Source: Smittium mucronatum (lineage: Eukaryota; Kickxellomycota; Harpellomycetes; Harpellales; Legeriomycetaceae). From it: 64,000 nucleotides of DNA. This document shows, piece after piece, positions 18,731 to 63,200 of the stretch. Position numbers and translations under genes: made by a program. Numbering within the stretch: the stretch's first letter is position 1; every line of letters starts with the position of its first letter. The stretch lies in NCBI GenBank assembly GCA_001953115.1, contig LSSL01000830.1, positions 1-64,000 of the forward strand, written 5' to 3'. Below the pieces are notes generated by a model, which searched no databases, had not been told where the DNA came from, and was given only the letters and a program-made list of their open reading frames with translations.

Positions 18731-19416
18731 GCAAACCCGGACATAAAAGGTTGGTTCCCTACCGTAGGCGTATTTATGGATCCTATTGAGTAGCCTTATT
18801 TTTCTTCTTTGACCGGTAAGACTAACCTTTCAATTTACAGGCCTTATTTTTAGAGTAAGATTTATGGATTTTTGAAGCCTGATAGCTCTGCGACTTTGCG
18901 GGATCATCAATTGTTTCTACATACTGGCACTGCCAATTGAGACTTTGCTCTTTCGATTGAGGATCCTTTTCTCCTTCTTGGTTTAAACCACGATTTCGAT
19001 TTTTTTTTTTTTTTTTTTTTTTTTTTNNNNNNNNNNNNNNNNNNNNNNNNNNNNNNNNNNNNNNNNNNNNNNNNNNNNNNNNNNNNNNNNNNNNNNNNNN
19101 NNNNNNNNNNNNNNNNNNNNNNNNNNNNNNNNNNNNNNNNNNNNNNNNNNNNNNNNNNNNNNNNNNNNNNNNNNNNNNNNNNNNNNNNNNNNNNNNNNNN
19201 NNNNNNNNNNNNNNNNNNNNNNNNNNNNNNNNNNNNNNNNNNNNNNNNNNNNNNNNNNNNNNNNNNNNNNNNNNNNNNNNNNNNNNNNNNNNNNNNNNNN
19301 NNNNNNNNNNNNNNNNNNNNNNNNNNNNNNNNNNNNNNNNNNNNNNNNNNNNNNNNNNNNNNNNNNNNNNNNNNNNNNNNNNNNNNNNNNNNNNNNNNNN
19401 NNNNNNNNNNNNNNNC

Positions 19417-20349: not shown

Positions 20350-22462
20350 AAAAATGTTTGATTGAAAATTTCTTTTTTTTTCATAGAAATTGGCGAGCTT
20401 TATCAGTCTTGATTTTTACTTTATAATTTTTTAAACTTATAAATTTCGAATTTAAAAAGTGTGTACCCGACCAAAAAAGATTATATGTAAAAATATATAA
20501 GAAAAGACTAGCTGTGTATATAAAAATAATTATTACTACTAAATTATTAACAAAAAAAACATTAGATATTTAATTTTAAACTTGAGAATTAATAACTCTA
20601 TTTTTCAAATAACTATATTGAATTTTTTATAAACATTGAATATTTTTTTATACTAAAATTAATTATAAAAACTATTTGCATCACATTTTTTAAAATATTT
20701 TATGTTAAATATTTAATTTAATAATTTGTTAATTAAATTAATTATTATCGCCCCTCTGAACTAAGGTTGATTAAATTCCAAGGATGTCTGATTCGTTAAT
20801 ATTTATTTTAAATAATTATTAAAAAGTTTTATTGAAAATTTATTATTGCGCAACAAGTCAAGAAAATGGATTTTGATGGAAATTCTTGGTCTTTTAATGC
20901 GAATAAAAACTTTTCCAATAATTATTTAGGGGTTTCAAGTTACTTAAAATTATTGATTACACAATTTATTAATTTATTAATAAAAATATAATTAATAAAC
21001 GTATTTAATAAATCCGGAAAAAATGTACCACATCCGCTTAGAAAAAAATTAAAAATTTAGATACATGATTGACTGGGAAAATGAAGATATTACTTTTTTT
21101 CATAGAAAATATATCTTTAAAATAAATAAATAAAATTTTTTTCGGGTTTGTAACATGTTTAATATATGGAAAAATTTTAGATATCAAGCTCATATTTTCA
21201 AAAAATGCAATGGGTTAAGTATATTAGGGGTGTAAAAAAAACGAACAAATAAATTAATAAATATGATTAAAATTATATCAATATTTATTGAAATGTGAAA
21301 TTTTAAAAGCTTTCTACAGGAGAAAAAAATTTAAACAACTTTCTTTGGGATATAAGACATTTCTGAATAGCGTCTAGTTATTTCAAATTATGAAAAAAAT
21401 TTACAAAAATGAATGTGACTTAAGTAACGATAATGTTTTTCCTTTTTCGCCTTGTTTATGTCAGTAATAATGTAGACCAAGATTTCATTATCAAGATAAG
21501 ATTTCTACATAAAAATTTTCAACTTGAAATTTGATTTTTTTTTTACTATTGAAAGATAAAAAAATATTACTAAGAGAATAAGAGAATAATTTTAATGAGA
21601 AAATTAATGTATTTATGTATCAGTTATGGCATAAACTTGTCATTTATTAGTAAAATTTTGGTAAAGGAACCAAAAAAATGTTTATTAATAAAGATAATTG
21701 AAAAAACAAAGCCCCAAAAAGCTTTGATGCAGCCACTATATAAATCCAATTATAAATAAAAAAATTATAGGGAGGAAAATAGATAAAATAGCAATTTCCT
21801 AATAAAATCTTATGAATTAGATTTATTTTATGGGTTTTATTGAATTGATAATTCTGTTACATTATTTAATATAATTGGTGTTTTTTAATTGATATCTAAT
21901 TTATTTTATAATCTCAACCCTCAAAAATACATGATTTTAAATTTTTGAAAAACTTCTTACAAATTATTATTTAAATCCAGTGAAATAAAATATATATTGA
22001 ACTGCGAAAAGCAAAAAAAATAAAACTGTAACTAATTGATAAATTTGAGACTAATAAAAACATTCGATTTATATTATGAAACTAAATATTCAAATATATG
22101 TAACCGATTCAATTATATATATATATATTTTTTTTTTTCTGGATATTTTAATTAAAAATAACACCAATAAAAAGATATTCAAATTTTATTGTTTATTATC
22201 TAATCTATATTAAATTGGGTGACTTTCAAAAAAAAAGCAAAATAATTTCAGTTTTTCGTTTAATTCCCAATATTTACTGATATATTTTCCTAATTTAATA
22301 TATTTGAAAAACATAAATTTCTAATAATAACTCATCTGGATACTTTTACACTTAATAAAAGTTACAAATGTACATAAGTTTTTCTTTTTAACAACGGAAT
22401 ATCTTATCATTTTAAAGTTTTAATAGTCTAATCTTTTTTACCATGTATATTATTTTTCTTAT
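20350..22462. other. AT-rich spacer
   Basis: No coding frame or RNA gene recognised. A short AT microsatellite lies at about 22116-22129, and many A and T runs occur. Confidence 0.5.
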
Positions 22463-22750
22463 TACAGGGTTTTTCATATCGATAGACCCTTTTTTTTAGA
22501 TTTGCGGTGTTATTTTCTTGATGAAAATATCAAAAGCGTTATTATTGGAATAAATAATTATTTATACCAATCAGAAAGCAAAAAATAATAATATTTAAAA
22601 AAGATTAGATTTTAACCAATAATGACATATATTATTGCTTATAAGATATTTTTTCTTATTGGTTATAAGAATGACCCCGCAGGTCCAAAAAAAGATGTCT
22701 ATTGGAATGAGAAAAGGGTCTATTAAAATGAAAACCCGGTATAATAAACT
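22463..22750 (+). repeat. 288-base dispersed repeat, copy A
   Basis: Matches 59985-60272 in the same orientation over its whole length. Shared blocks, in order: GGGTTT(TT)CATA, ATTTGCG, GGTTATTTT.TTGATGAAAAT, TCAAAAG, AATAATTATTTA, ATAATGACC, GTCTATTGGAATGA.AA, and a final AAAACCC. Open frames of 67 and 63 codons cross it on opposite strands, but these are not conserved in the second copy. It is probably a non-coding element such as a SINE, MITE or solo fragment. No terminal inverted repeat is obvious. Confidence 0.75.
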
Positions 22751-24820
22751 TTTTATTTTCTTTTTTTTGGTGTATGTTAAAAACGGAAATCATCAAAATA
22801 TTTATGATCTGAAAAATTCGATACAATCCCGTGCTTAAAATTTGCACAATTAAAATAGTATTTAAAATAAAATAAGGATAATTGGAAAATTATAAAAAAG
22901 TTTTATTGCGATTTTTTATATCAAATAATAAAATACCAATATTTTAATAGACCATTATACTTTATTTATACCCGAAATGATAAGCTTAATTGAAATTTTT
23001 TTAAAAAAAAATTGTGTTGTATTTAACAAAATCTAAGCCTATCTTCCTGTTAAATTATATATTCAATAGGAAAATATAAAAAGCCGAGCTAAATTGGTAT
23101 ATTTTATAATAATAATTTTTCAATACAACAACAAGTGTCACGTATATTATATATTTCTTGATGAAATTATCTTCATTAATCTAAATAATATTTTTAAGTC
23201 AGAATAGATCCAAATCATAATTCAAAAATAAATAAAAGTAATCGCAGAATTATTTTCTAGGGAAATGATCCCTAACCATCTTATTTTTTTAAAAAATATA
23301 TATTAACCTAAAATATTAAATAATAGTTAAAATTATGTAGAATAATTAGAAATAAATTATAGGTTATCTCAATGTTTTTTATACATAATTAGTGGGGCGC
23401 AATGAGAGTTATTTTAATGCCTTTATTTATTGAAAATAACACATGTATAAAAAATTCTTATTTTTTGTTTGTAATTCATTTGATATTAGTAAAAAAATTA
23501 TATATCACATATACCTATTTTTAAAATATATTAATTAAAAAAATATGTTGCTTTTTTTCCTTAAAATGGAGAGTAAGTGTAAATATAAATTAGAACTGTA
23601 TTTTAGATGATTTCATAACCTCATATATGGATTATTTTTATCCTAAAACTAAAAAATTGGAGTGAAAAATGGGTTAAATTAGTATATTTGTTTCTATTAA
23701 CTTGTCATTTTTTTACCGCTGTAAAAATCTAATAAATGAGCCATCTTTTATTGAAAATTTGAAATATAAATTTATTTATCCCTAAAAGGGTTTTTTGGGT
23801 GATGATATTTCTAAAATTTATAATATAAAAGGATTTTTTATCATATTTTTATTGGATAGATTTCATTACTCCTTAAAAAATGGAGAGTGGGCTGTAAAAT
23901 TCGAAAATTTAAAAATAAATAACTCGAATAGATTGTTTGAATACCAAAAGAATACAATTCTCGGTATTCCAAAACACTGATTAAATTTAAATTTAATATT
24001 AACTTACAATCAGCAAAAAATTATAAATATATATATTATATATATATCATGGTTAAAACACGAATTAATTTTTTTAATAACATTTATAGAAATAATGATA
24101 TTTTTTAGTGTTTAATTAGTCCCTTATTTTACTATTTTTTTATTTTTGGGTGATTTTTTCTAGAATTTATGAGGAAAAAGGCAATTGGGGTAATGCTAAA
24201 ATATAACTACTTTTTAATATTATTAACTGTTAATTACATTTTATAAATTTTTAACACAGCGTTAAACCCTGTTATAATTTCAATAAAAAATTATAAATTA
24301 AAATATGTTAAAATAGTTAATATAATAGATTTAAATTTTAATTTCTCTTAAAAATATTTGGAAATTATATTCTGTGGAATATAAGATCAATAGAAAGAAG
24401 CATAAATCATATAAAAATTAAATTCGTTATTACACAGATTAAATTTAAACATTCTCTGATGTTCTACATTAATTTATCTTTAAAACACGAGCGGAAATAA
24501 ATCGTTAAAATTATTACTGCAGGAATGGGCAGTATTTTAATTTAATTTGAAAAAAATCCCAATTTTTTGCTTAATTTAATAATTTAATAATTTAATTTAC
24601 AGGATAAAATCCTTTATATTTAAATAAAACCCATTTAAGATCAAAAAAAACCTTGTATTATGGTATAATACTTAGTTTTGAATATATTGGATTTTTTTTT
24701 TATGGATTTGAAATAAGTCTAGTTTATTTTTACTTCATAATTTTCAATAATTGCATGTTTTTCAATTTTCAATCCTATGATCTCCAGTATTTCCCTCTTT
24801 TTTTTGAAAATCTAATTAAG

Positions 24821-39475: not shown

Positions 39476-42400
39476 CAGACGGCATTTATGATTTGTTTAA
39501 CTTATTGTATTTTTGAATAAAAAATTTATCACTTTACTTATGATAATATATGAATTTATGACAACGTGACTGAAGGTCTAATTTCCAATTTGTCTAAGAG
39601 AATTTCACCTAATTTTTTGCCAGTGAAAACTCAGGTTTGAATTCAGATTTAAAAAGCGCATTATGTAGAAAGGTATCATTTTTTCAACCCGGAAACGAAA
39701 TAATGAAAATATTAGATCAAATTTTCTGTAATTTAAAAGTCCTGAAAAAGAATTTTTTGACATAAAATGAGTTGGCACCATTGTTTTACCAGTTCAGAAT
39801 TGAAGTTTGAGCTAAATTTTTTCAATTGTGAAAATATTATACTCGAAAAATACTATAAAAAAACCAAATGAAGATCTTTCTAACTAATAAAAGGCTTTAC
39901 CGAAAAATTCCGTGATAAAAAAAAGGTTTTACCATTGAAAAAAATATGATCTACCTCATTAACCCCGATCCACAATAACAGGCGCTCTAAAATAAAATTC
40001 TTTTAACTCTCATTTGAAATATATCAATCACCTCTATTTGAATGAATCATTAGAGTATCTAATTATCTGAGGATAATCATGTCTAGTCATATTTTCAAGA
40101 TTTTTGTTTGGTCCCAATTTAAAACTATCTTTGTATCTTCAATCGTGAAAAAATTGATTTAATAATGCATCAAACTAAAAATTTCACTCTCTCTATCCAT
40201 AGTATCGGATATTATTTTCAAGAGAAGGAACGCATATTCTAAACTCTTCGGTAATGAATATTTGAAATATTTTCATAGTTTAAATTAGACAAAAACATTT
40301 ATCTTGATCGGGTCCAACTATACATTATATGTTGTAAATATCCGAGGTATATTTAAATATAGGAAGCCATTTTACTTCAAGCTAGAATGGAATTATGTTT
40401 TTTTTACAGTGTTAAAAAATAAATTAATTAAATACTGCCATAAATAGGCACAAAGTTCGAAAACACCATAATCCCTACCAATTTTGACATAATGTCTCAG
40501 TTGATAGTAAAAAAGACAAAAAAATAACAGTTTATATTTAAACTTGAGATTTAAATACTCACTCTATAGGGTGACTTTCTCAAAAGATATTACAACTGCT
40601 TTTTAAGTCAAAAATAACAAAATACATTTTCAATAGTAGTTTTTCTACTATGATTTCTAGATTTTTGAAACGAAAATTCTATTAAACGTTAGGATTATAA
40701 ACAGAACATATACTTTTTTTATTTATCTCTTGATCTTTGATTTTTTAAAGTAAAATATTTAGGATTTATTATTATTATTTATATTATGATTGCTATTTAC
40801 TTGTACACATGAGGCGAGATGTCTTAAAATGACTTAAGTCACTTCTATACTTTTGACGGGAATTTATCTTGTAACTTTAAAACATAGATATTTAAAACCC
40901 ATTTTAATATTTTCCTACAAATTCTAGAAGTTAATAACTGTTTTATCTTTACTATTGATAAAAATGTAGGATATTGGTTAATTTCGAATTTCAATTAAAT
41001 AATATCAACAGCATGATCATATGGTTAAAATGCTAAATTATGAGGAGTCGGAAAGTATTTTAAAAAAAGAAAGGCAGTTGCTATATACATACAATCAGAC
41101 ACAGCATGATCATATTTTTTCCATTGGGGAGATAAATAAACCAAAAAAAGGTAAATAAAACACTCCAACTATAGGCGATCGGGTTTAAAAACCAGTATCC
41201 ATATACCTTACTGATGTTATTTTTACTAGATGTGTAAATTAACAGAGAATAATTTGTATTATAACTTGAATATCCAAAAAAATATATAGAATATTTGATT
41301 AGAATATCCCTTTTAAAAATACTTATATGAGGATGCAGATTTTAGAGTACATATTTCGGGATAAATGAATGGTAAATTTGGTCATTTAGCTGATAGGGTG
41401 TTTTGGTTTTGACTTTTGATCTTCAGATTTCCAGAATGAGATTATCAAATGAATCTAAAAGTTGTTAATACTGGGTGAAGTTAAAACTTTAATAAAAAGA
41501 TCCATTAAATATGAATAATTGAGTGCTGTCCTTTTCATAAATAACTAAGTAAATCTTATTAATAAAAAAAGCGATTGTGCTATTATAACAAAAGGGAAAT
41601 CGCTAGAGATTAACATTAAAAGTTGAGATTTGTACCTTGGGTTTCCTACTTTTTACTTTCTACCTCCAGTATGTAACTCACAATAAATGCCGATACCATC
41701 ATTCCTTTCTTGATGTGAATTTATGCAAAAAGAATAGAGGAATTTTTTGATAAATTTATTGAAAAAATAAGTATTTTACCTAATTGATATTGTTTTACGT
41801 TTCAAACATAATCACCTCTTTTTTAACCCTCACTATTAAGAAAAGTCCAGTAGAGAAATTTTTATGCACTTGGTCTTTAAATAATCTCTCAAGTACACAA
41901 CTTATTTTGAAATAGCAGATAAATATAATTTTCAGCGGCTTTGCATTTAAATTATTTCATTATTAAAAGCAAAAAAATAGACATTAGATTCCTTTCTTAT
42001 CGATTAATATCTTAAAGACGGGGCTATAAAGGTCTAAGCCACTCAAGATTGATTACTTTTCAAGCCAATATCAAATTTGTATTTCAAACATATTTTATTC
42101 CAATAAAAGTGGCGTATTTTTTTCAAATTCAGATGATTTCATAATTTTCCTCCCCAGAACACCTCGTCTTTCTGGAAGAAAAAAAAAGTTCGGTTGGTAT
42201 TTCCCTGAACTATACATTACGAATTAAATTAATAAGCAAAAAAAAGTGGCGCCACAATATTGATAACCAAACATAGCAATCTTTTTAAAAAATTTAAAGA
42301 TCCGAGTATTCGGTTCAAGTAAGATTTATAGATAAGTCTTTTTTTAAATACTTAAATTAGCTATAAATTACTAATGGCACCTTACAGCTAGCTTTTTTAT

Positions 42401-44333
42401 TCGGTAAACATGCTGCTAATTACATGTTGATTAATAATTTAATATAACTCATGTAGAAACATGAACTTGTTAAAATTATATTATAGATGCGGCTTATTGC
42501 TGCTTATTTTTTATTCTCAACAATAGAGAATTAAAGAAGTTGAGTTATATATATTTAATATTCATCAGCTTTGCATTCAATTTAACTTATATTAATCAGA
42601 GACATTACATTCACCAATAATTTTTGGTGCTCTGTCTTGAATTTGGAGATTATAAACTAGAAAGTTATTTTGGCTATACATAATCATATATTTTGCATAA
42701 GTAGAGAATGGAGACTAAAAATTTACTTGACCTCGTTTTTTTAATTAAAGCAGATCATTGGAATAAGTTCTGGTTTCTTGTAGCTTGAATCAGGATACAA
42801 ATTCAACTTACCAATTCGCTACCAAGTCTCTATTAAAAATGGATTTTTCAATGACACTATTATATTGAGCTAATATTTTAGCTGCAATTTAATTCATCAG
42901 GATTCCGATAATATATTCTTTTTTAAAGTCACTAACATCTAATAGGTATTAAACAAGAATTTTTTGTCAATAATAATAAAACTCCTCATCAAAAATCTCC
43001 ACTATTTTTTTTATAGATTTCACAAAAATATAAGAGCAGAGAAATAACTAAAACATTTTTTATCCCGTTAGTCCGAGAAAATTAACCTGCATGACTCAGC
43101 ATGAAATCTCGATTTTCCTCTTGGGATCAAGGTGTATATTGAGAGTTTCTGGATTCTTATGGTCTCTAGGTTACATGTCATACAACACTATCGTATCTGT
43201 TAATTTTATTCGTTCCATTCAAAGGTACTGTACATTTTTTCAAGAATATTCATTGGTCTAAATTATGTTCTTTGTTTCATTAACCAAGACGAGTACTGAT
43301 TGTTCTTAGTGGTATTGATCGTAAAGTATTTCGTTTATTAATAAAAAATATAAAAATTCGCTAATTAATTATAAAAAGGTGCCTATTTAGTACCATTCGA
43401 CAATAACAATCCAAATTGGTGATCATGGGATTATAGAAATAAATTAAACTTCTGGCTTATTAAGAAATCCCCCGAACTAGCAATTGACGTTGCAATTTTT
43501 AACTTTTAAACCATTCAATTGGTTATTTATATCCAATAACCAATACTTGTTATCATCTTTAGTCTAATTATTACTATCAACTCCATGAATATCCTAAATT
43601 TGGTCATAATTTTTCGCAATAATAGTTAGGTCCCAACTTATAAAATTTGGAATTTCATGAAATGAATTTTTATTATGTAATTAGTTACAAATAATCAATG
43701 GTTTTTGCTTATTATGCTTCTCTCGTTATTGAAAACAACATTTTATTTTAGTGATACAAAATTTGATAAAGATTACCATATGTGTAGCTCAGTATTTATA
43801 ACAAATATGCTCTTCTAGTTTAGGATAAATTCAATGCATGTGTCTATTTACGGACAAGTATTTAAGTTTGTCATACTAAGACCATTTTTATCAAGATCAA
43901 AAATTGTTTGCTTTTTAAAGCTGAAAAAAAAATTGCTCACCATAAATCTCAAGTACCCTGAATTACAAGAGCATATAAACTTTCTATTGATTTATATAAA
44001 GCCGCATCATTACCCTTTTATAATTTCATTATATTTCACTTGTATTTTGGTTTGTCTTTTTTAAGTGTATACTGGTTAGTCTTTCCCCCGACATTAGAGC
44101 GCCTTGTCAAATACATAGATTTATTGCTTATATTATTAGAACTAGACTTATTCCAAGTAAAGGTAGATTTGTTTTTTTTTTAAATTTTTTTTTAAATCCT
44201 CCCATATTTAGGATCATTTAAAATTTATGCCTTAATTTAATTGAAGAAAAAACTAGCTCTCACAAATCACCATTTCCCTTCCTTCAGAATTCCTCGGCGC
44301 ATATAATTCTTAGTTCTTTTTAAGATACCGAAA
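39476..44333. other. Spacer with no recognised gene
   Basis: Intermediate base composition. It contains a 15-base direct repeat at 41008-41022 and 41101-41115. An open frame of 76 codons lies at 43834-44064 (starts ATG, hydrophobic C-terminal half) for which I have no family. Just before the velvet gene (44168-44200) is a T-rich tract, and a pyrimidine-rich stretch lies at about 44260-44310. Confidence 0.4.
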
Positions 44334-45677
44334 ATGATGCTTAGTAATCTGAAGGAAGCTTTCCCTGAAAGAAGCGATTTAAGCGATTTTCTGAATACAA
44401 TTCAAAATAAGTACGTTTTTACATACAAATTATTATCAACACTTGTTATTATTACTTTACATTCCTTCAAATGTATATATCCTTTTTCATATTTGGTAAA
44501 TTTTTGCTTTTTTTTATCCTTTTCCCCATAAATACCCTTTAATTATCAACTCACAAGTTTTCGCCTTCTTTTTATTTTGAAAATTCAACAATCATTCCAT
44601 TGCACATTTTTTATCTCCTTTTAACTTTACGTAGAAATAATTATATCTACAAACTGGAAATTGTACAACAGCCTATTAGAGCAAGGATGTGTGGTTTTGG
44701 TAATAAGGTACCTATACAGAATATCAAAATAAATAGATTTCATTTTTAATTATAAATTGATTGATTAGGATCGCAGGCCATGTACTCCTCCCCCAATTTT
44801 AAAACTAAATGTATATGATCAAAACAATAATCAAGTTGATCCTAGGTATGCTATTGAGGCAGATCTAATTGCTAAATTTTCCATTACTAGTTTCTAATAT
44901 TATTTTTTTGATGGAACCAAAAATTGACATTAATTAAAAATATAAATTGTTACTAGGACATTAAACATCAGCTTCTTCACAGTTATGGCAAGTCTAACTT
45001 CAAGCGATGGTTCGCAGGACATTGATTTGGTTAGACATAAAGTAGTGGAGGATGGGTCAAGTTACCCGTCTTTTGATTCTAATAGCAACTTAGAGGACTC
45101 TTTGGTTTCTGAAAATGACTCTGAAGAAAAAAATTTTGTTATACATCCCGGTGATTTTTTCAGGATGCACCCTGCTGATAAAGCTGTAAAAAAAGATCGA
45201 CATTTAAGGATGTTGGTAGGAAATACAGTGGCAACAGCTTCATTACTACTCGATTTGAACAACGAACCAGGGATATTTTTCATATTTTATGATCTTTCCA
45301 TCAGAAAGGATGGAAGGTTCAAAATCAAATTCTCATTCTTCTCGCTTGAATTGTACGCATTTATCACTATAATTTTTGACTAGTTAAATCGCAGTTTTTT
45401 GGTTACATGTTATTAACTATATAACATTAAATAGCGAAGGTGAAACATGTATTGCCCAGACCCAAATAAGATCTCAGGTTTTATCTGATGTAATTTCCGT
45501 ATATACTGCAAGATCATTTCCTGGAATGATAGGTACTTTATACTTTTCATTGATTTATTTGAACTTGTTTCCTGAATTTCTTTATATATTTACTATTTAT
45601 TATTAAAACAAATAGAATCGACACATATATCCCACCACTTCTGTAAGCAGGGCGTAAAAATCCCTGCTAGAAAGTAG
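44334..45677 (+). CDS. velB: Velvet-domain transcriptional regulator, VelB-like, six exons
   Basis: Velvet proteins are fungal DNA-binding regulators that link development, spore formation and secondary metabolism; VelB acts in the nucleus with VeA or VosA. Exons: 44334-44410, 44635-44707, 44769-44845, 44957-45352, 45435-45532, 45616-45677, giving about 260 residues. All phases join in frame, with GT donors and TAG acceptors. The domain is complete: VQQPIRARMCGFGNK-DRRPCTPPP (exons 2-3), FFTVMASLTSSDG and LVGNTVATAS...GIFFIFYDLSIRKDGRFK (exon 4), then VYTARSFPGMI-EST...KQGVKIPARK (exons 5-6), directly followed by TAG. An acidic Ser-rich insert of about 65 residues (DSNSNLEDSLVSENDSEE) splits the domain in exon 4, as VelB proteins have. 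The TPPP in place of the DPPP of other members also favours VelB. The start is the first of two tandem ATGs; the short first exon is the least certain part. Confidence 0.93.
44411..44634 (+). other. Intron 1 of the velvet gene
   Basis: Donor GTACGT, acceptor CGTAG, 224 bases, phase 2. It joins the short N-terminal exon to the NNYIYKLE stretch. It is the longest of the five introns, and the exon before it carries no recognisable domain, so it is the least certain. Confidence 0.7.
44708..44768 (+). other. Intron 2 of the velvet gene
   Basis: Donor GTACCT, acceptor ATTAG, 61 bases, phase 0. It splits CGFGNK from DRRP, one continuous velvet motif, so the splice is well supported. Confidence 0.92.
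44846..44956 (+). other. Intron 3 of the velvet gene
   Basis: Donor GTATGC, acceptor ACTAG, 111 bases, phase 2. Removal joins NNQVDP to TLNISFFTVMASL in frame. Reading through would give about 16 more codons and then a stop. Confidence 0.85.
45353..45434 (+). other. Intron 4 of the velvet gene
   Basis: Donor GTACGC, acceptor AATAG, 82 bases, phase 2. It joins FSFFSLE to the EGETCIAQTQ stretch. Confidence 0.88.
45533..45615 (+). other. Intron 5 of the velvet gene
   Basis: Donor GTACTT, acceptor AATAG, 83 bases, phase 1. It splits the conserved FPGMI-EST motif, so the splice is well supported. Confidence 0.93.
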
Positions 45678-46490
45678 AAGTTATATTTTGCATATAATTC
45701 AAATACTGTATAAAAGTTTTCAATTTAATCATTTTTTTGTTCTTCTATGATATTCAGGTGTTAATATTCCATCTATTACATCTAGTGCGGCTCCTATTTC
45801 GCTTTTCGTCTTAGGATATACTTAATCAAATAATTTTCATTATTAATAAAAATTTATAAAAAAACTTCTATAAAAAATATGAGAAATATGTAATATTGAG
45901 TCACTCTTGAAGTGATACCTATGTTCTTGTTATTTTAATTTTAGTTATTTTTAATATTCGCCTATAAAATGACGACAACATCTAATACATCTGACCTTGT
46001 TTTTTATTAAAATTAATTTCATTCAATAAGATATCAACACTAACTTACCTTTGAAACGCCCTCAATAATTGGGAAAATATTTAAACAGCTGTGAACATGA
46101 TTTTGAATTCTAAAAATGGCATCCACATCAGACTTTTACTTTTATATACTTTTGTTTGATTCTTTCTTGAGAATTTCATGAGTCACTTTCAGTATGATTA
46201 TTTACATCAAACGTAAGCAATTGGAAGATTATGTAAATTTAAAAGATAAATTTTAATTTCAAGAAGAGACATTGATAAATTGTTTTGATATAGATCCGAC
46301 TCGTTCACGTAAACAGGTCAAGTATGATTCCTTAATTTATTCGGCGGATAAAAGGTGTATATGTCGACTATAAGTTCATATTGGGCAAAAGTACTACGTA
46401 GATTGATATATATAAAGCAATAAATTCTTAATGAGGCAATATTCAGGATTATAATGTGGAAATATGTGTTTTTTAATTGTAAATCCTTTC
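45678..46490. other. Region downstream of the velvet gene, no gene recognised
   Basis: Contains a short coding-like stretch on the plus strand at about 46281-46367 (DPTRSRKQVKYDSLIYSADK) that ends in a stop and matches nothing I know. No clear AATAAA poly-A signal follows the velvet stop closely. Confidence 0.4.
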
Positions 46491-46494
46491 TTTT

Positions 46495-46660
46495 CCCGAT
46501 ATCTATTGAACGGTGAATGATAGGAAGATGATATCGAGCTATTTCGATACCAAATAGCCGGCAAAACGACTTTGCTATCCGTTCCGCGAATATATCAATC
46601 CAAAGATTCTTCGGAGATGTTATAAAGCCGATATAGAAACAAATGAAGCATTTTAGTATT
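46495..46660 (-). pseudogene. Integrase-like fragment (Ty3/gypsy type), degenerate
   Basis: One minus-strand frame reads SPKNLWIDIFAERIAKSFCR, LFGIEIARYHLPIIHRSID. The spacing agrees with the DDE integrase core of gypsy elements: an aspartate, then a phenylalanine-containing helix ending in LxGI, then a Y-H-P stretch. The usual DxGxxF is altered and the Q-x-N-G-x-x-E end is lost. A second overlapping frame (LPAIWYRNSSISSSYHSPF) also looks integrase-like, but both cannot be right, so the call is tentative. Confidence 0.35.
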
Positions 46661-47594
46661 ATTAACTTGAAAACTAATGAGATATCGAAAAAACACTATT
46701 GAAATTATCCCTATTAGCTTAATTAACCTTTTTGAAAAAATTACTTGACATGTATAAACAATATAAACTCCACAAATTTTAAAATTGGGATTTTCTATAG
46801 AAATCGACCTCTATTCGCATTTACAACATATTACAAATTATAATCATCTTTTCTTTATTTACTGAAATTAACTTAATAAAAACTTTTTTTTTTCAATGCT
46901 ATATTATCTAATTTGCAAATTTCTAATCCCAGAAACATTTTAAAATGGATGAGTTCGATAATAAAAAAATCCTTATTAATATATATTTCCTAAAAAGGAA
47001 AGTATAATATTCCAAAAAAATCCTAAGTGGATATTATTACACATTTGTCTAATATTACTTATTGATTGTTTTTTTGGATTGTTTTCTTATAAAACAAAAT
47101 TATTAATAGATGTGCTTCCTGTTTAAAACTTCCCATCGCTTTGATAATTTATTGTTCCATTTTTTGTTTTCACCTTGATTAACTTCAAAAAAAAGGGGAA
47201 GTCGTATATTTCAATTTATTGGTCGGTATTTTAGGTGAAATTTTATGTTTACACAATTTTTATTTTAAAATATTTATAATTGCCACTAATTTGAGTATTT
47301 TTGAATACTAACATCCGCTATTCCTGATAAAATCCTACCTTTATTCCCATGACTTTAAGAGCCGAGATTTAACATTCCGTCTTTAACCAACAAGAAATAG
47401 TTCAATAGTTTATAATCATGAGACTCATGCTAAACACTTTATGGATGGTGCAAATAGTAGAATATTGTTATTTCTAAATTCCATTAAATAATAATTACAT
47501 TCAAAACAATATCATAACTAAAAGAAATCCATTAGCTATATAAATATTAAACAAGTAAAACTTTTTTTGAAAACCAATATTCATTCTATTTTTG
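46661..47594. other. Spacer, nothing recognised
   Basis: AT-rich sequence with no readable gene or clear repeat. Confidence 0.4.
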
Positions 47595-55895: not shown

Positions 55896-56719
55896 TTTTT
55901 TAAAAAAAAAAATTAAAGAGATTAAATATTTTATATTACTTGCACAAATTTTTTAAAATTTTGCTCATAATCTATATAAAATTTTAATTTTCAAAAAATT
56001 ATCACACTGCCATATAGAAATATTTCACAATTTTTAATTTTTTTGAGAAAAAAAACATATTTTTACATATATAAACATATTTATTTACATAATTATTTAC
56101 ATAATTTGATTTTAATTTGGGTCCAAAAAACAATTTTTTTGGAAATTGGATAATTTTATTGGATTAATAAATGCAATTATTCTACCATGAACATCTGCTA
56201 CATAGAAAATATAAGGAAATGAATTAAATTTGCGTTATTTCGGCGAGAAAAATTGCTTATATTTATAAATCGAAATTTTTATATAATCTATGCGAATTTA
56301 TTGTTTTTCATACCTTTTTAAGTAACATTCAAATATCCATACGCGGATTTAAGTTTTTTCAAGGCCAAAAAATCTTCTTTAGAAAATATGTAAAATTATT
56401 ATTTTTTATTTCAGGGTTTCAGACTAATTTAAAAAAAAAAAATTACTCATGAACAAAGGTAACTGGTTGATTTGATTACTAGCATCAACTTATTACTATA
56501 AAATTCATCTTTGCTAACTTTGGATGTTGTCACCTCATCAATATTTGGATCTAATTTACCCCCACCCCACCAATATATATAAAGGCACCACTTCCCATAT
56601 GATAAAGAAAACTTATTATTATGTTCAACTAAAGATCTAAAATAAACCTAAAACAATGTAAAAACCAGCTTCATCATTCAATCTTGCTTTAATTTATATT
56701 GAAAAATACGAAGGGTGAG

Positions 56720-56742
56720 TTTAGAATTTAGAATTTAGAATT
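56720..56742. repeat. TTTAGAA heptamer tandem repeat
   Basis: Three tandem copies. Confidence 0.85.
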
Positions 56743-59700
56743 GCAGATTTTTATTTGCGATTTAAAAAAAGAAACGTAGATACAAGTCCTTCAAAGAAGA
56801 GGAAGACATAGAAAAAAGATAAATTGGTCGCTTTTTATAGTTTTATTTTAGATATTTATAAATTATATTAATTAAAAATAAAACATCTGAATATTCCCTC
56901 GATTCGAATATCATTCTGGCCATAAATTTTATAAAAAAAAACTTAGTCTCTTAGTTAATTTTTCAAAAAAATTAAAGATTATTTTTAAATCGGGGATATC
57001 CAGCATGTTTAAAGATGCGTTAATCATAATTTTTCTAACATGAAAAAAACATTATTCGCTCTGTATATTTATAATATTTCTTACCTATTCTTACCAAATT
57101 TATTTTCAGATTTAACCGATATGTATAAAAAAATAGTGAAATCTACCTTAAATATCGTTTTATTTTAAAAAATATAATTTTAAATAAAAATTTTCATCTC
57201 TTCAGACAAAAAATAATTTATTTTATAAATATGATAATGTATTGGCTATATTTTAATATTTAATGTATAAAAAAAAAGCACTTAAATATAAATATTATGT
57301 TTACTCAAAAATAAAAAATTAAGTAATCAACGCCCATTTACCTAAAAAAAAATCCGTCCATTTAGTGATTATTTTTCTTACTAATAGAAATATTTGATCG
57401 TATATATTTTTTATAAAATGTGTTTATAAGATGATTGAAAGTCTAAAATTGTAAATTATTAAATTTAAGAGAAACCATTATAAATAAGTATATTTCAAGC
57501 TCGTTCTAGGGTACCAAAAAGTCGATTTTTTCTTTCAAAGTAGATAAAATATTTTTAAAAAAATTCTCCATTATCTATCAATATTTCTGTGACTTATCAT
57601 CTTGTAGTATGGAATATGTTCAAAATCAAAATCTTTAACTTTTTTAATGGGTATTATTTAAAATTCTAATATACTAGTATATTTCCAAGACTGATATCTA
57701 TCATTAATGGTTCTTTTTTGTCTTCAAAGCCCATTTTTTATTGATGGGATTGATATTAAATATCCATAGATGATTTTAGATATTATTTCAGTCAGTTCCT
57801 CAAGATTTGCATGTTTCTTTATGAAAAGAGTTTCTCTCTTTTCAAAAATTTCAAGCTTTGTGTGCAGCTAAATTCTACAAAAATAAATATATAAAATTTA
57901 GCTAAAATTGTTGCACTTCAAATTTCCAATTATTTTGTTGGAATTTTTATCTACATGAAACTAAAAATATATCTTCAATTAGAATTTCCCAAATTCATCT
58001 GAAGCATTTTTTATCTGCCTAGAGAAATCTGAAATGATGTTTGAAATTTCAAAGTTAATTTTTTACTTTCCAGTATTTTTTTTAGTGTATTAAACATTTG
58101 CAAATAAAGAATTTTGTTTTAGCTGCTCAAAATAGAGTAAACTGTTGGAATGACTTTCTGATTTAAGTAATTAATAATTGAGACCATCACCGGAAATTTT
58201 TCATAAATTAGCTTAAAAGTTGATTATACTTTTAAATTAGTGGCTTTTGATGATATTTTTATTATGTTTTTTGATGTCACAGCGACCTTCAAGTTTTCTA
58301 TATCCGATGAAAAATCCTTGACACATGAAAGATTTGAAAGGTTTGAATGATTTCTTTTGAGAACTTTGTGCATATTTATTCAAAAAATCCAGTCGTACCT
58401 GGGCTCATTTTTTGATTCTTTCCTTTGTAATAGTTCACAATAAAGTATATTAAATTAATATCAATGGGATTAACATCTTTTTTTAAATTTTTTTCTTAAT
58501 AATTTTAGACTTTAGACCAAGCTTGTGTAATCCAAAAATGTATTTTTTATGGTCAATACTTTTATTTGTGACGCAATTATTGCAGTGATTATTTCCTTAA
58601 AAAGTAGTAATTCTCCATAATAAGATATGCAAACTATTAATATAAACAGGAAACCATTACGTTTAGAATTCAAAGAGCGGTAATCTGCTTTAGCAAAATA
58701 TTTTAGCTTTTTGGAATAATTCTCTCTCAATTTTTTTTATATTTTTTCATACAGCTCATTCATCTCCAAATACCACTCGAAAACAAAAACTTAAATTATT
58801 AATATAATTTCTGTTAAAGTTTCAATATTAATGTTTAATAAGGTATGTTTTTCAAGCGAGTTAAATGAAAATTAAATTATTTTAGTGTTTATTTAAGAAA
58901 GAAGAATATTATTTAGATGACCAATATGAGTACAAATTTACAATAATGGTTTTTTAAATTAAGAAATCACAAATTTACATTAAGAAAAAAATATCTAAAA
59001 TGATTTGTTTAATTTTTTTAATACATTTATAAATATTTTGTTATTTTTAACATTAAAATCTTTTAAGAGTTTAAATGTTGAGCTTATATTATTTTTAAAG
59101 TAGTGTGTGGTTTCATTAGACGCAGTGTATAATGGTATTGTTTTTTAAAAAAATAGCTTAATTTTTTACAATATCTTTTTGAGGAGAATAAAGGATTTTT
59201 TTTCTTAAACTGGCTGTATTATGGAATAATTTCATAAAAAAAATTATTATAATTTTACAAAAAAAAAAATTGGGAATTATTGAAAATTTTTAATCTCATA
59301 TATTTTTAGAATTATTTCTATATTTCTATTTCAAGTTATGGTTATTTATTAATTTATTTGTAACTTTTAAGCCTAAATCACATTTTTTATATAATAAATA
59401 TTATTAATACAGAAAATTTAGCAAATTCGATTATATCTTATAAATCAAACTTTATATTTTAAATGTGATTATTTTTATTAATATTTTGTGGTTATTGATT
59501 TTTTTCATGAATTTAATCATAAAAATTTGATTAAAAATAGATTTTATTCTTCTTTTCAATAAAAATAATTTTGGTAATAAATATCGATTGCATTGATTAT
59601 TTTGTGAATATAAAGTCATAAAATTGGATTGATTTTCATTTTTCCATCCTATTTTAAGGCGATATGCTGAATTTGGACAGTAAATTCAACCTTAAATCCT

Positions 59701-60272: not shown

Positions 60273-63200
60273 CAATCACCCCCCCCCCATACCAAATTTT
60301 TTTTAACTTATAATTCTTATAAATCGAATATGAAATTTAAAATATTTAAAAATTTATCGATTATATTACAAGTAAACTATGTTTATCATATATTGTATTT
60401 TTAAAATTGTTAAAATTCTAATTTAATGAAGTTCTATTTTATTCAAAAAAATTTAAAATTATAATTAATATGAATTTATAAATAATTATAGGTTAAATAA
60501 TAAAATATATTCGAATTTGATTGAAAGAAATCAAAAATCAATTTGTTTTTCAAATTAAGTAAAAAATATTTATTTAGGTATACATCGATAATTTTTAAAT
60601 CGGCTTAGGTAAAAGTTTTTTTTAACATTTTCAGAGCTAAATTTTTTCCTACTCTTGTTTTTATAATTTTAATTTTGCTGAATTGCATGATTTAACCAAA
60701 TATACATATACATATATAATCGAATAAAAAATGAAAGCTATTTTTTTACAATCGGCTATTTAATGATTAAATTTGACAGAAAATATGAAATAAAGTTGCT
60801 TAATGTTCAAATTTATTCAAGTTAGTATATCTTTAAACCCGAAAGCCCTTCTATAACCACACAAAAGCAAACGTATAGATTATTTTTAGATTATTTTTGA
60901 AATCAAAATTCTTAATGATTATAGATTTTTATTGGTTAATTTATGATTGAAAGAGTATCAAATAACCCTCAAAACTATATGAGTTAAAATATAAAAAATA
61001 TTAATTGTAGACTTGTTGAAACATATCATCCTATCGAGGATAAAATCGTGCCAAGCTCCTAGGGTACATCTTTTCTTGAGTAATGGATAATTTAATATTT
61101 TTAAAATTTTAATTAACCAATATTATTTACTTTTAGATCCAAAATGGATAATTTTTTAAACTCTTTTTAACTTAACTCGATTTAAAATTTACAAATTTGT
61201 GTCTAATTTTTTTTTTTATACTTAATATGACACATAAGAATATTTTTGATTTTCATTAACACAATTTGATTCAAATTTACTTGTTTTGATTTCTTTCAAT
61301 CAAACTTGATTCAATTTTACAATTTAAAAATAATTATATGGATATTAAATATTAAAAAATTAAAAAAAATTCACAATTTATTCATTGTTTTTAATTGCTA
61401 ATATTGAGATTCATCCATAATTTATCTTATTTTTTGATATAAATATACAAAATTTTAAATCTTATAAAATCTTATGTATAATGATCGAACTTATAAAATT
61501 ATAAATAAACATTTACAAATAATTAAATCTTAAAAAAAAAGAATATAATCTCAACAAATTTTTAAATTGTCTTAAAAAACGCCCAAATTGTGAATAATCT
61601 GTCAAATAGTACAGTTAAATTTAAATATTGAGTTAAATAGAAAATAAAATTTCATTTATGAGTTTTAAATTAAATATGAAATCAATCAACAGAGTAAAAA
61701 GATAAAACAAAAAAACGAAAATAAATACTATATGATTTTATTGATTTTTTTCTCGATTTAACACTTGAATTCTTTAATATATCAAATAATTTCATGAAAT
61801 AAAACTTTATTTTTAAAAATTTATCAAAATAATATATATTTTTACCATAACATATTTGGATAGAAAAAAGAAGAAAATATTTGTTACACAAAACTACATA
61901 ATAATCTTTTAATAGTATCAATAATTTTATTTATTTAAATTCAACCGATTTACAGTACGCGAATGACAAATTTTTGAAATTTAAACATGATTTTGTGATT
62001 TAAAAATAATTTTGAATTGTAAGTATATAATGTAAATTATACTTATTATTATTTTTTTTAAAAGGTAAATTATTTATAATATTTGTATACTAGAAAAAAC
62101 TAAAATAAAAATATAATGAAATGAAATTATACTTATTTAGTTTCGAAAAATGCTCATATATATGTGAAAATAAATATATATGTAGAAGTTCAGGTGTCGC
62201 AATTGGTTCCGACCAATCAGGATCTGATTAATACAATACATATTCATCCGAGTCTTAGCTATACGGAAATTTCTGGATATTTTATAGCCCCTGTAATAAA
62301 ATAAAACACAAACAGTATTACATAGAATTAATGGATAATGTAGTATTATGCTATTATTATATTATCATACAATACTAATAACTGAGAAATTAAACAAGAA
62401 AAAAATTATTGAAAATAGGCCACTATTGACACTCAAAAATTTTTTACGCGTAATCGCATTAATAAAAGCAAAAAAATACTACTACTTATAAAAAATAGGA
62501 TTTTTTTTTAAAAAAAAACTTTAAATCATGGCACTTCAAATAAATTATTATTAATATATTTAGAAAGAGCATTTTTCCTGAAATGAAAGAGAATTATGTC
62601 TTTTTTTGAAAATAAGAAAACACCTATACAAGAAAATTTGATACTTGTTTGCTTTAAAAGCTTAAATAAAAAAGTAATCATCATTAAAAAAAGATATTTC
62701 TATTCAGATTAACAAAAAAAATTCAAACTTTTAATGAATTTTTTACTATTATATTCCTCACTATTTTTTCTTCTGTTCTATTTTTTAACGAAATAAAAAC
62801 AAATACTTATAAAAAATAAAAATAAAAACTCATAAGAAAAAAAATAAACAAAAAAACCATAAGAAAGCTAGTAATAAAAGAAAAAACAGCCTTTAAATTC
62901 AATACCAAAAACATCATAGTACAGCTATTATCTAAAGTAAATATCAATTTATGATGAGCCCTCAATATATCACTTAGAACCCCTAATAATGGTAATTAAA
63001 TACCAGAAAATTCAATATGAAAATATTTTCGTACGTGGTAACTTTATAAAAATTTTAAAAAAAAATTCTATTTAGTTTATGACCTCATTGTATTTGTAAT
63101 AAAAAATATTTAATTTTAAATTTAAAAAATTAATTTGTTTTAAATGATAAATTATTTAGATAAAATTTTGAATAAAAAATTATCTAGAAAAAACTTATTA

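Follow-up and report, generated by a model that had tools for sequence, protein, structure and literature searches.

The question raised by positions 44334-45677 (+ strand) of this Smittium mucronatum contig is whether the open segments found there, within a window of 64,000 nucleotides (the whole stretch of DNA that was analysed), make up an intact host gene and, if so, to which branch of its family the gene belongs. With a probability of roughly 0.87, the locus is best explained as a gene that encodes a velvet transcription factor of the VelB type in this insect-gut fungus, with a mode of action expected to follow that of its Aspergillus counterpart. Sequence evidence places the protein in the velvet family and, in phylogenies, on the VelB side; its DNA-binding region and its dimerization region are both complete, its insert lies where that of VelB proteins does, and the genome also carries a gene of the VosA type. 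On these grounds the locus appears to be an ordinary, intact-looking VelB-type gene and a previously unknown member of a well-known family.

The gene model consists of six exons:

44334..44410, + strand: exon 1, starting ATG ATG at the first ATG of its open stretch; N-terminal arm, residues 1-25 plus 2 nt
44635..44707, + strand: exon 2, first half of the DNA-binding region (YKLEIVQQPIRARMCGFGNK)
44769..44845, + strand: exon 3, the other half of the DNA-binding region (DRRPCTPPP), running into the variable region
44957..45352, + strand: exon 4, remaining variable region, insert, and alpha part of the dimerization region
45435..45532, + strand: exon 5, linker and beta part of the dimerization region, to FPGMI
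45616..45677, + strand: exon 6, C-terminal ESTHISHHFCKQGVKIPARK and stop; carries Ile at the site of Aspergillus VelB L331

Joined, the exons give 783 nt encoding 260 amino acids and a terminal stop. The five introns (224, 61, 111, 82, and 83 nt) all have GT...AG ends, no internal stop or frameshift was found in the 260 joined codons, and the C-terminus of the protein is IPARK. The original prediction of six in-frame exons ending at an IPxRK motif proved exact at these coordinates, and its statement that the gene bears no visible damage was borne out: the 260-residue, six-exon model reads as an intact gene. The inference that the window is fungal also agrees with its source, S. mucronatum.

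Spliced protein-to-DNA alignment was performed with our own aligner and four relatives as queries. All four queries placed introns after GFGNK, SLE, and FPGMI, and two placed the one after VDPR. With three of the four queries the aligner also removed part of the insert as an intron, which we attribute to the short inserts of those queries. Exon 1 was reached by none of the four and is less firmly supported than the others because it rests on its splice sites, its open frame, and an N-terminal resemblance, in which LSDFLN...NNYIYKL is similar to LASFLRSRPQYEDYRFDL of Tieghemiomyces; the N-terminus of the Dimargaris protein is similar as well. An alternative acceptor for exon 5 at 45394 was rejected since it breaks the frame.

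Five velvet loci were located in the S. mucronatum genome, the present gene and one each on the contigs designated C126, C290, C1432, and C1106. The assembly examined comprises 73.8 Mb in 2,957 contigs, and genes may be missing from it relative to the published assembly of 102.35 Mb, which is described as having 26.05% GC and 8,712 gene models (PMC5954228). An intron within FPGxx|(E)S in phase 1 and another just after the alpha part in phase 2 occur in all five gene models. Three of the five have an intron before (A)DRRP, although its phase is not constant among them, and four have a phase 2 intron behind the DNA-binding part, at roughly the same place. The two in-phase sites common to all five models are hard to reconcile with a wrong splice model, with the qualification that the other four models were made by the same spliced aligner as was applied to the present gene. 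Four of its five splice donors read GTAC, as compared with none of the 15 introns in the four paralogue models; these may be weak splice sites, and the contrast may be partly a product of the aligner, whose small donor bonus favors A (GTAA) over GTAC.

The claim that the locus encodes a velvet protein was confirmed by the Pfam Velvet profile (PF11754), which matched residues 31-260 of the joined protein over profile positions 1-235 of 237 with 220.3 bits (E 4.8e-65; cut-off 25 bits). In a six-frame PF11754 search of the organism's own genome, this locus was the best match (98.3 bits). Aspergillus VelB is reported to need an arginine cluster in its DNA-binding region (PMC13389560). When the protein was aligned to A. 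nidulans VelB (4n6r_B), all 15 DNA-binding residues scanned, at positions taken from the same paper (PMC13389560), were found to be kept, including R71, R80, and R81. Within the dimerization region, G240 and L331 have been reported to matter in Aspergillus VelB (PMC12077163). The equivalent of G240 is kept, as it is in 240 of 240 collected proteins. At the equivalent of L331 the protein has Ile; of the 232 other proteins among the 240 collected that fitted the search pattern (8 did not), 231 carry Leu and one carries Met. Substitution of L331 by Ala damages the Aspergillus protein (PMC12077163); Ile for Leu would be a conservative change. One hundred relatives with the full domain, a set rich in Aspergillus, Penicillium, and Coemansia judging by the names of the matches, define 37 columns with conservation of 95% or more; the protein departs from three of these columns, and 9 of the 100 relatives depart from more.

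The nearest proteins among the matches listed come from S. culicis (70% identity over 63% of the query) and S. simulii (49% over 90%), followed by Coemansia, Tieghemiomyces, Dimargaris, and Kickxella. The S. culicis protein AYI69_g1630 (165 amino acids) is identical at 116 of 165 positions and has the same 54-residue insert length, but its deposited model extends only from MCGFG to just past the alpha part, whereas the S. mucronatum gene is complete. The deposited model is probably truncated; its end coincides with the site of the intron after exon 4. S. simulii BB561_002639 (229 amino acids) ends in IPxRK and differs in having a shorter insert. No deposited S. mucronatum protein matching the gene was present among the best 120 of 128 matches (467 candidates of 143-455 amino acids), and a separate search with an exon 4 fragment (9 candidates of 72-229 amino acids) gave one match, from S. 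culicis, and none from S. mucronatum. The gene therefore appears to lack a deposited annotation, unless its entry has a length outside the searched ranges. No paper on velvet genes of Smittium appeared among the titles listed in the open literature, and in PMC10386755 the word denotes the assembler. The present gene supplies a complete VelB model for a true Smittium; among deposited proteins, the one close model that was found, from S. culicis, looks truncated.

An alternative that deserves consideration is that the locus is a recently silenced VelB copy, a pseudogene that has yet to acquire stops and whose role could be taken over by other velvet genes. Five velvet loci in one genome would permit this, and the GTAC donors in four of five introns (subject to the aligner bias noted above), the Ile in place of the Leu found in 231 of 232 others, and the failure to find a deposited protein in the lengths searched (among the best 120 of 128 matches and with the exon 4 fragment) all fit with it. 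The gene also appears to have diverged further than its companion, with 70% identity to S. culicis over 63% of the query as against 95% over 71% of the domain between the VosA-type gene and its S. culicis counterpart. A silenced copy is nevertheless difficult to square with 260 codons free of stops and frameshifts, five GT-AG introns, all 15 DNA-binding residues, and changes at only three of 37 near-invariant columns, a count exceeded by 9 of 100 relatives. Moreover, a block within the insert is kept between S. mucronatum and S. culicis (see below), and both phylogenetic trees place the gene closest to that of S. culicis, so that no better VelB ortholog is seen in the examined assembly. We therefore regard silencing as unlikely and an intact VelB-type gene as the preferred reading.

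The assignment to VelB over VosA was evaluated by several comparisons and was upheld. Among sequences of solved structures, the protein matched VelB (4n6r_B) with 138 bits, ahead of VosA (75) and VeA (70). A tree of 51 rows, which included a single VeA row and no VelC rows, grouped the protein with the two Smittium proteins (98/99), but the VelB/VosA split was weak (62/78); several rows in this tree were very long and the bootstrap had not settled. The single VeA row grouped with the VosA rows, apart from the present protein. Eight mostly long-branched rows (three S. mucronatum paralogues, Mortierella, Lobosporangium, Geosiphon, VeA, and one Kwoniella) were dropped to give a tree of 43 rows without VeA or VelC. 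In this tree the VosA rows lie on one side of a branch (100/99) that excludes the protein, which joins S. culicis and S. simulii (100/97) and, together with them, the VelB proteins of Coemansia, Kickxella, and Martensiomyces (100/98). Placement with VosA was rejected on the 43-row tree, at a cost of 27.5 log-likelihood units (p-AU 0.0068). The strong VelB/VosA result required removal of the eight rows, and the tool warned of meeting long branches in the 43-row tree (A. nidulans VosA, a Kickxella b group, and Glomus with Diversispora). The original prediction had called for a tree spanning VeA, VelB, VelC, and VosA; VelB is favored over VosA, and the test is mainly one between these two types because VelC was absent from the rows and VeA was represented by one, in the 51-row tree.

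Some local features point in the same direction. The motif TPPP after RRP (PCTPPP in this protein) occurs in 79 of the 120 VelB-seeded matches listed and in none of the 120 VosA-seeded matches, where DPPP is found in 92; the pattern was unmatched in 29 and 9 of these, respectively, and TPPP is a criterion of our own that is taken from no paper. The use of TPPP as a VelB sign was thus supported, though not as an absolute one, since the VelB-like paralogue on C290 has DPPP. The region between the motifs, at 101 amino acids, fits VelB better than VosA (medians 140 for VelB-seeded and 49 for VosA-seeded matches, the latter with a 95th percentile of 94). The acidity of the insert had also been put forward in favor of VelB. 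Here the length fits but the acidity does not: Asp plus Glu make up 16.8% of the between-motif region, as compared with medians of 7.0% in the VelB-seeded (n=103) and 14.3% in the VosA-seeded (n=113) sets. An AlphaFold model of the S. simulii ortholog, not of the S. mucronatum protein itself, has a mean pLDDT of 85.3 and a pTM of 0.78, and a structure search with it returned VelB 4n6r_B first (E 8.6e-20, TM 0.83 by target length), followed by VosA and VeA.

In the published velvet phylogeny (Chen et al. 2024, PMC10845976), the Zoo-VelB and Zoo-VosA clades cover Kickxellomycotina, the subphylum of Smittium, Zoo-VelC is confined to Zoopagomycotina, and the tree as presented names no VeA clade for Zoopagomycota. 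Smittium is unnamed in the main text of that paper, and the present gene may or may not belong to its sample. A second alternative is that the protein belongs to another clan (VosA, VeA, VelC, or a group confined to Harpellales) and is VelB-like only through ancestral motifs. This could account for the weak VelB/VosA split with all 51 rows (62/78) and for a between-motif region as acidic as that of the VosA set, but not readily for the p-AU of 0.0068 against a VosA placement, the 100/98 grouping with Kickxellomycotina VelB, the TPPP motif, or the 63-bit lead of VelB over VosA among solved structures. We consider membership in another clan very unlikely and retain the VelB assignment.

A mark of VelB proteins is an insert at a fixed site, after a five-residue boundary that mostly ends in K/R-H (PMC12614781). 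DLVRH at residues 99-103 fits the published boundary and is followed by 54 amino acids, 8 of them Ser, and then the LVG block:

45039..45200, + strand: codons of the insert (IDD), residues 104-157, 54 amino acids, directly after DLVRH
45105..45170, + strand: codons of the conserved block VSENDSEEKNFVIHPGDFFRMH, residues 126-147, inside the insert

The C-terminal end of the insert was set by hand, four residues before LVG. By position and boundary the insert conforms to the VelB rule, and its disorder is putative. The 22-residue block is present in S. culicis AYI69_g1630 and is lacking in the S. simulii protein. It is identical to S. culicis at 20 of 22 residues, whereas the rest of the insert is identical at 11 of 32 (31 of 54 for the whole insert). 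When matches were shuffled within the insert, such a block was reached in 0.065% of 20,000 trials; the block length was chosen post hoc, although every trial was free to use its best block at any position. No other sequence among the 240 collected velvet proteins contains any of four sub-strings taken from the block.

For the Ascomycota, a MotifIDD has been described that is absent from VelB of other divisions, whose insert sequences differ considerably; the average insert in 'Zygomycota' is given as 28 amino acids, and the Aspergillus VelB insert is reported to favor VosA and to tune stability (PMC12614781). We put forward tentatively, as a possibility with the odds somewhat against it, that true Smittium evolved its own VelB-insert element, VSENDSEE[KR]NFVIHP[GE]DFFRMH, as a MotifIDD counterpart by which a gut symbiont that has at least five velvet genes, none of them VeA-like, would select the VosA partner or control VelB stability. 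The block common to the two species may have a role in partner choice; two sequences are too few for a firm claim. The 20 of 22 residues held in common in an otherwise drifting insert make this a small, testable case of a lineage-specific insert motif.

Comparison with A. nidulans VelB provides the framework for a mechanism. In addition to the 15 of 15 scanned DNA-binding residues and G240, the two proteins have in common the position of the insert after LV[KR]H. They differ in the length of the insert (99 residues in A. nidulans, 54 here), in the longer linker of A. nidulans VelB between the dimer parts, in the residue at L331 (Ile here), and at the C-terminus, where the 377-residue A. nidulans chain runs about 30 residues past the IPxRK site and the S. 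mucronatum protein ends at IPARK. By analogy with Aspergillus, the protein would fold as an NF-kappaB-like beta sandwich and would dimerize chiefly with the VosA-type protein encoded on C126, or with itself. The dimer would then be expected to enter the nucleus and to bind promoters of development and spore genes through the arginine cluster, and the insert may tune stability and partner choice. VelB-VosA is a likelier main dimer than VelB-VeA, since the published tree as presented is without a VeA clade for Zoopagomycota (PMC10845976).

The candidate partner gene on C126 corresponds to the deposited AYI68_g470 (100% identity over the 178 domain residues searched). It is a velvet gene of the same genome with intron sites in common with the VelB-type gene, but it differs from it in belonging to the VosA clan and in having a long C-terminal tail; VosA is its best solved match (146 bits). 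Among the remaining paralogues, the C290 gene is VelB-like (VelB 132 bits, VosA 85), with DPPP and a short variable region; the C1432 gene (VelB 92 bits, VeA 66) is long-branched and lies on the VelB side; and the C1106 gene is divergent (VelB 70 bits, VosA 67), with the RMCGFG part changed to ACVVEAG. None of these four other velvet genes had VeA as its best solved match. Hosts of S. mucronatum are described as restricted to Psectrocladius midges (PMC5954228). Together with the VosA-type gene on C126, the present gene suggests retention of the core VelB/VosA pair by an obligate insect-gut fungus.

The surroundings of the gene had been portrayed as a transposon-rich AT desert in which it is the only gene in 64 kb without visible damage. 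The AT-desert part of this picture does not hold at the locus, as the gene's own block (32001-54000) has 27.2% GC against the genome mean of 26.05%; blocks at 2-14, 20-32, and 54-64 kb are AT-rich (19.6-20.7% GC). The label transposon-rich is reasonable for the window as a whole, which has ten main multi-copy stretches at approximately 0-1.25, 10.8-11.5, 12.6-13.1, 22.4-22.8, 35.4-35.9, 39.3-39.5, 47.6-47.8, 56.2-59.3, 60.5-61.4, and 62.2-63.0 kb, and weaker matches near 14.8-15.0, 49.2-49.5, 51.4-51.6, and 52.2-52.4 kb, but the only recognized transposon coding piece is a reverse-transcriptase fragment at 1-1255. The segment 39480-47570 is nearly single-copy: with every candidate scored (2 of 2 for 39480-44333 and 2 of 2 for 44334-47570), its copies in the rest of the genome amount to one match of 53 bases and one of about 80. 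Outside this segment the best 39 or 40 candidates per search were scored, so that repeat counts are lower bounds and repeats may be missed; the search skips simple repeats and very common words.

Pfam scans for other genes covered 176 of the 222 N-free stop-to-stop frames of at least 48 amino acids (46 low-complexity frames were left out). Six-frame reads with stops as X gave no Pfam families in 42 pieces from 33.2-54.3 kb outside the gene, and RVT_1 only in 48 pieces from 1-3, 14-19, 19.45-22.45, 56-59, and about 63.9-72.9 kb of the contig; for the AT-rich sequence outside these intervals, coverage came from the frames of at least 48 amino acids. Other recognizable host genes nearby were rejected, the scans having given one marginal match besides, to PF21578 (117-like_vir) in one frame of the 32.5-63.5 kb set (E 0.0027), which was treated as chance. 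The tRNA and Rfam scans of the 64-kb window found nothing. These results are consistent with a solitary gene, although such scans would miss a gene that lacks a Pfam domain or has very short exons. One recognized gene in 64 kb is sparse relative to the published density of one gene model per 11.7 kb, but many genes lack a Pfam domain.

The isolation of the gene among repeat-bearing stretches would also suit a chance assembly of open pieces or a transposon-captured exon that is no host gene, but this reading has a negligible probability and is refuted as far as sequence can refute it by the E-value of 4.8e-65 over the whole domain, the S. culicis counterpart at 70% identity, the intron sites common to the paralogues, and the near absence of copies of 39.48-47.57 kb (two short matches of 53 and about 80 bases).

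Several other elements of the window were characterized in passing. The reverse-transcriptase element fragment at 1-1255 (RVT_1, E 1.3e-11) consists of frames 82-669 and 673-1242 with a stop between them, and its copies, at 68-90% identity, occur on at least 17 contigs. An AT-rich repeat of about 3 kb at 56202-59252 has copies at 66-77% identity on at least 23 contigs and no Pfam match within 56-59 kb. An assembly gap (N run) lies at 19027-19415 between long T runs. A short repeat at 22443-22791 (about 270 bp), whose ends contain inverted sub-matches, is found on at least 39 contigs at 79-87% identity. Finally, a repeat of about 0.9 kb at 60465-61355, present on at least 21 contigs, has ends (60465-60536 and 61284-61355) that are inverted copies at 78% identity, and looks like a small inverted-repeat transposon.
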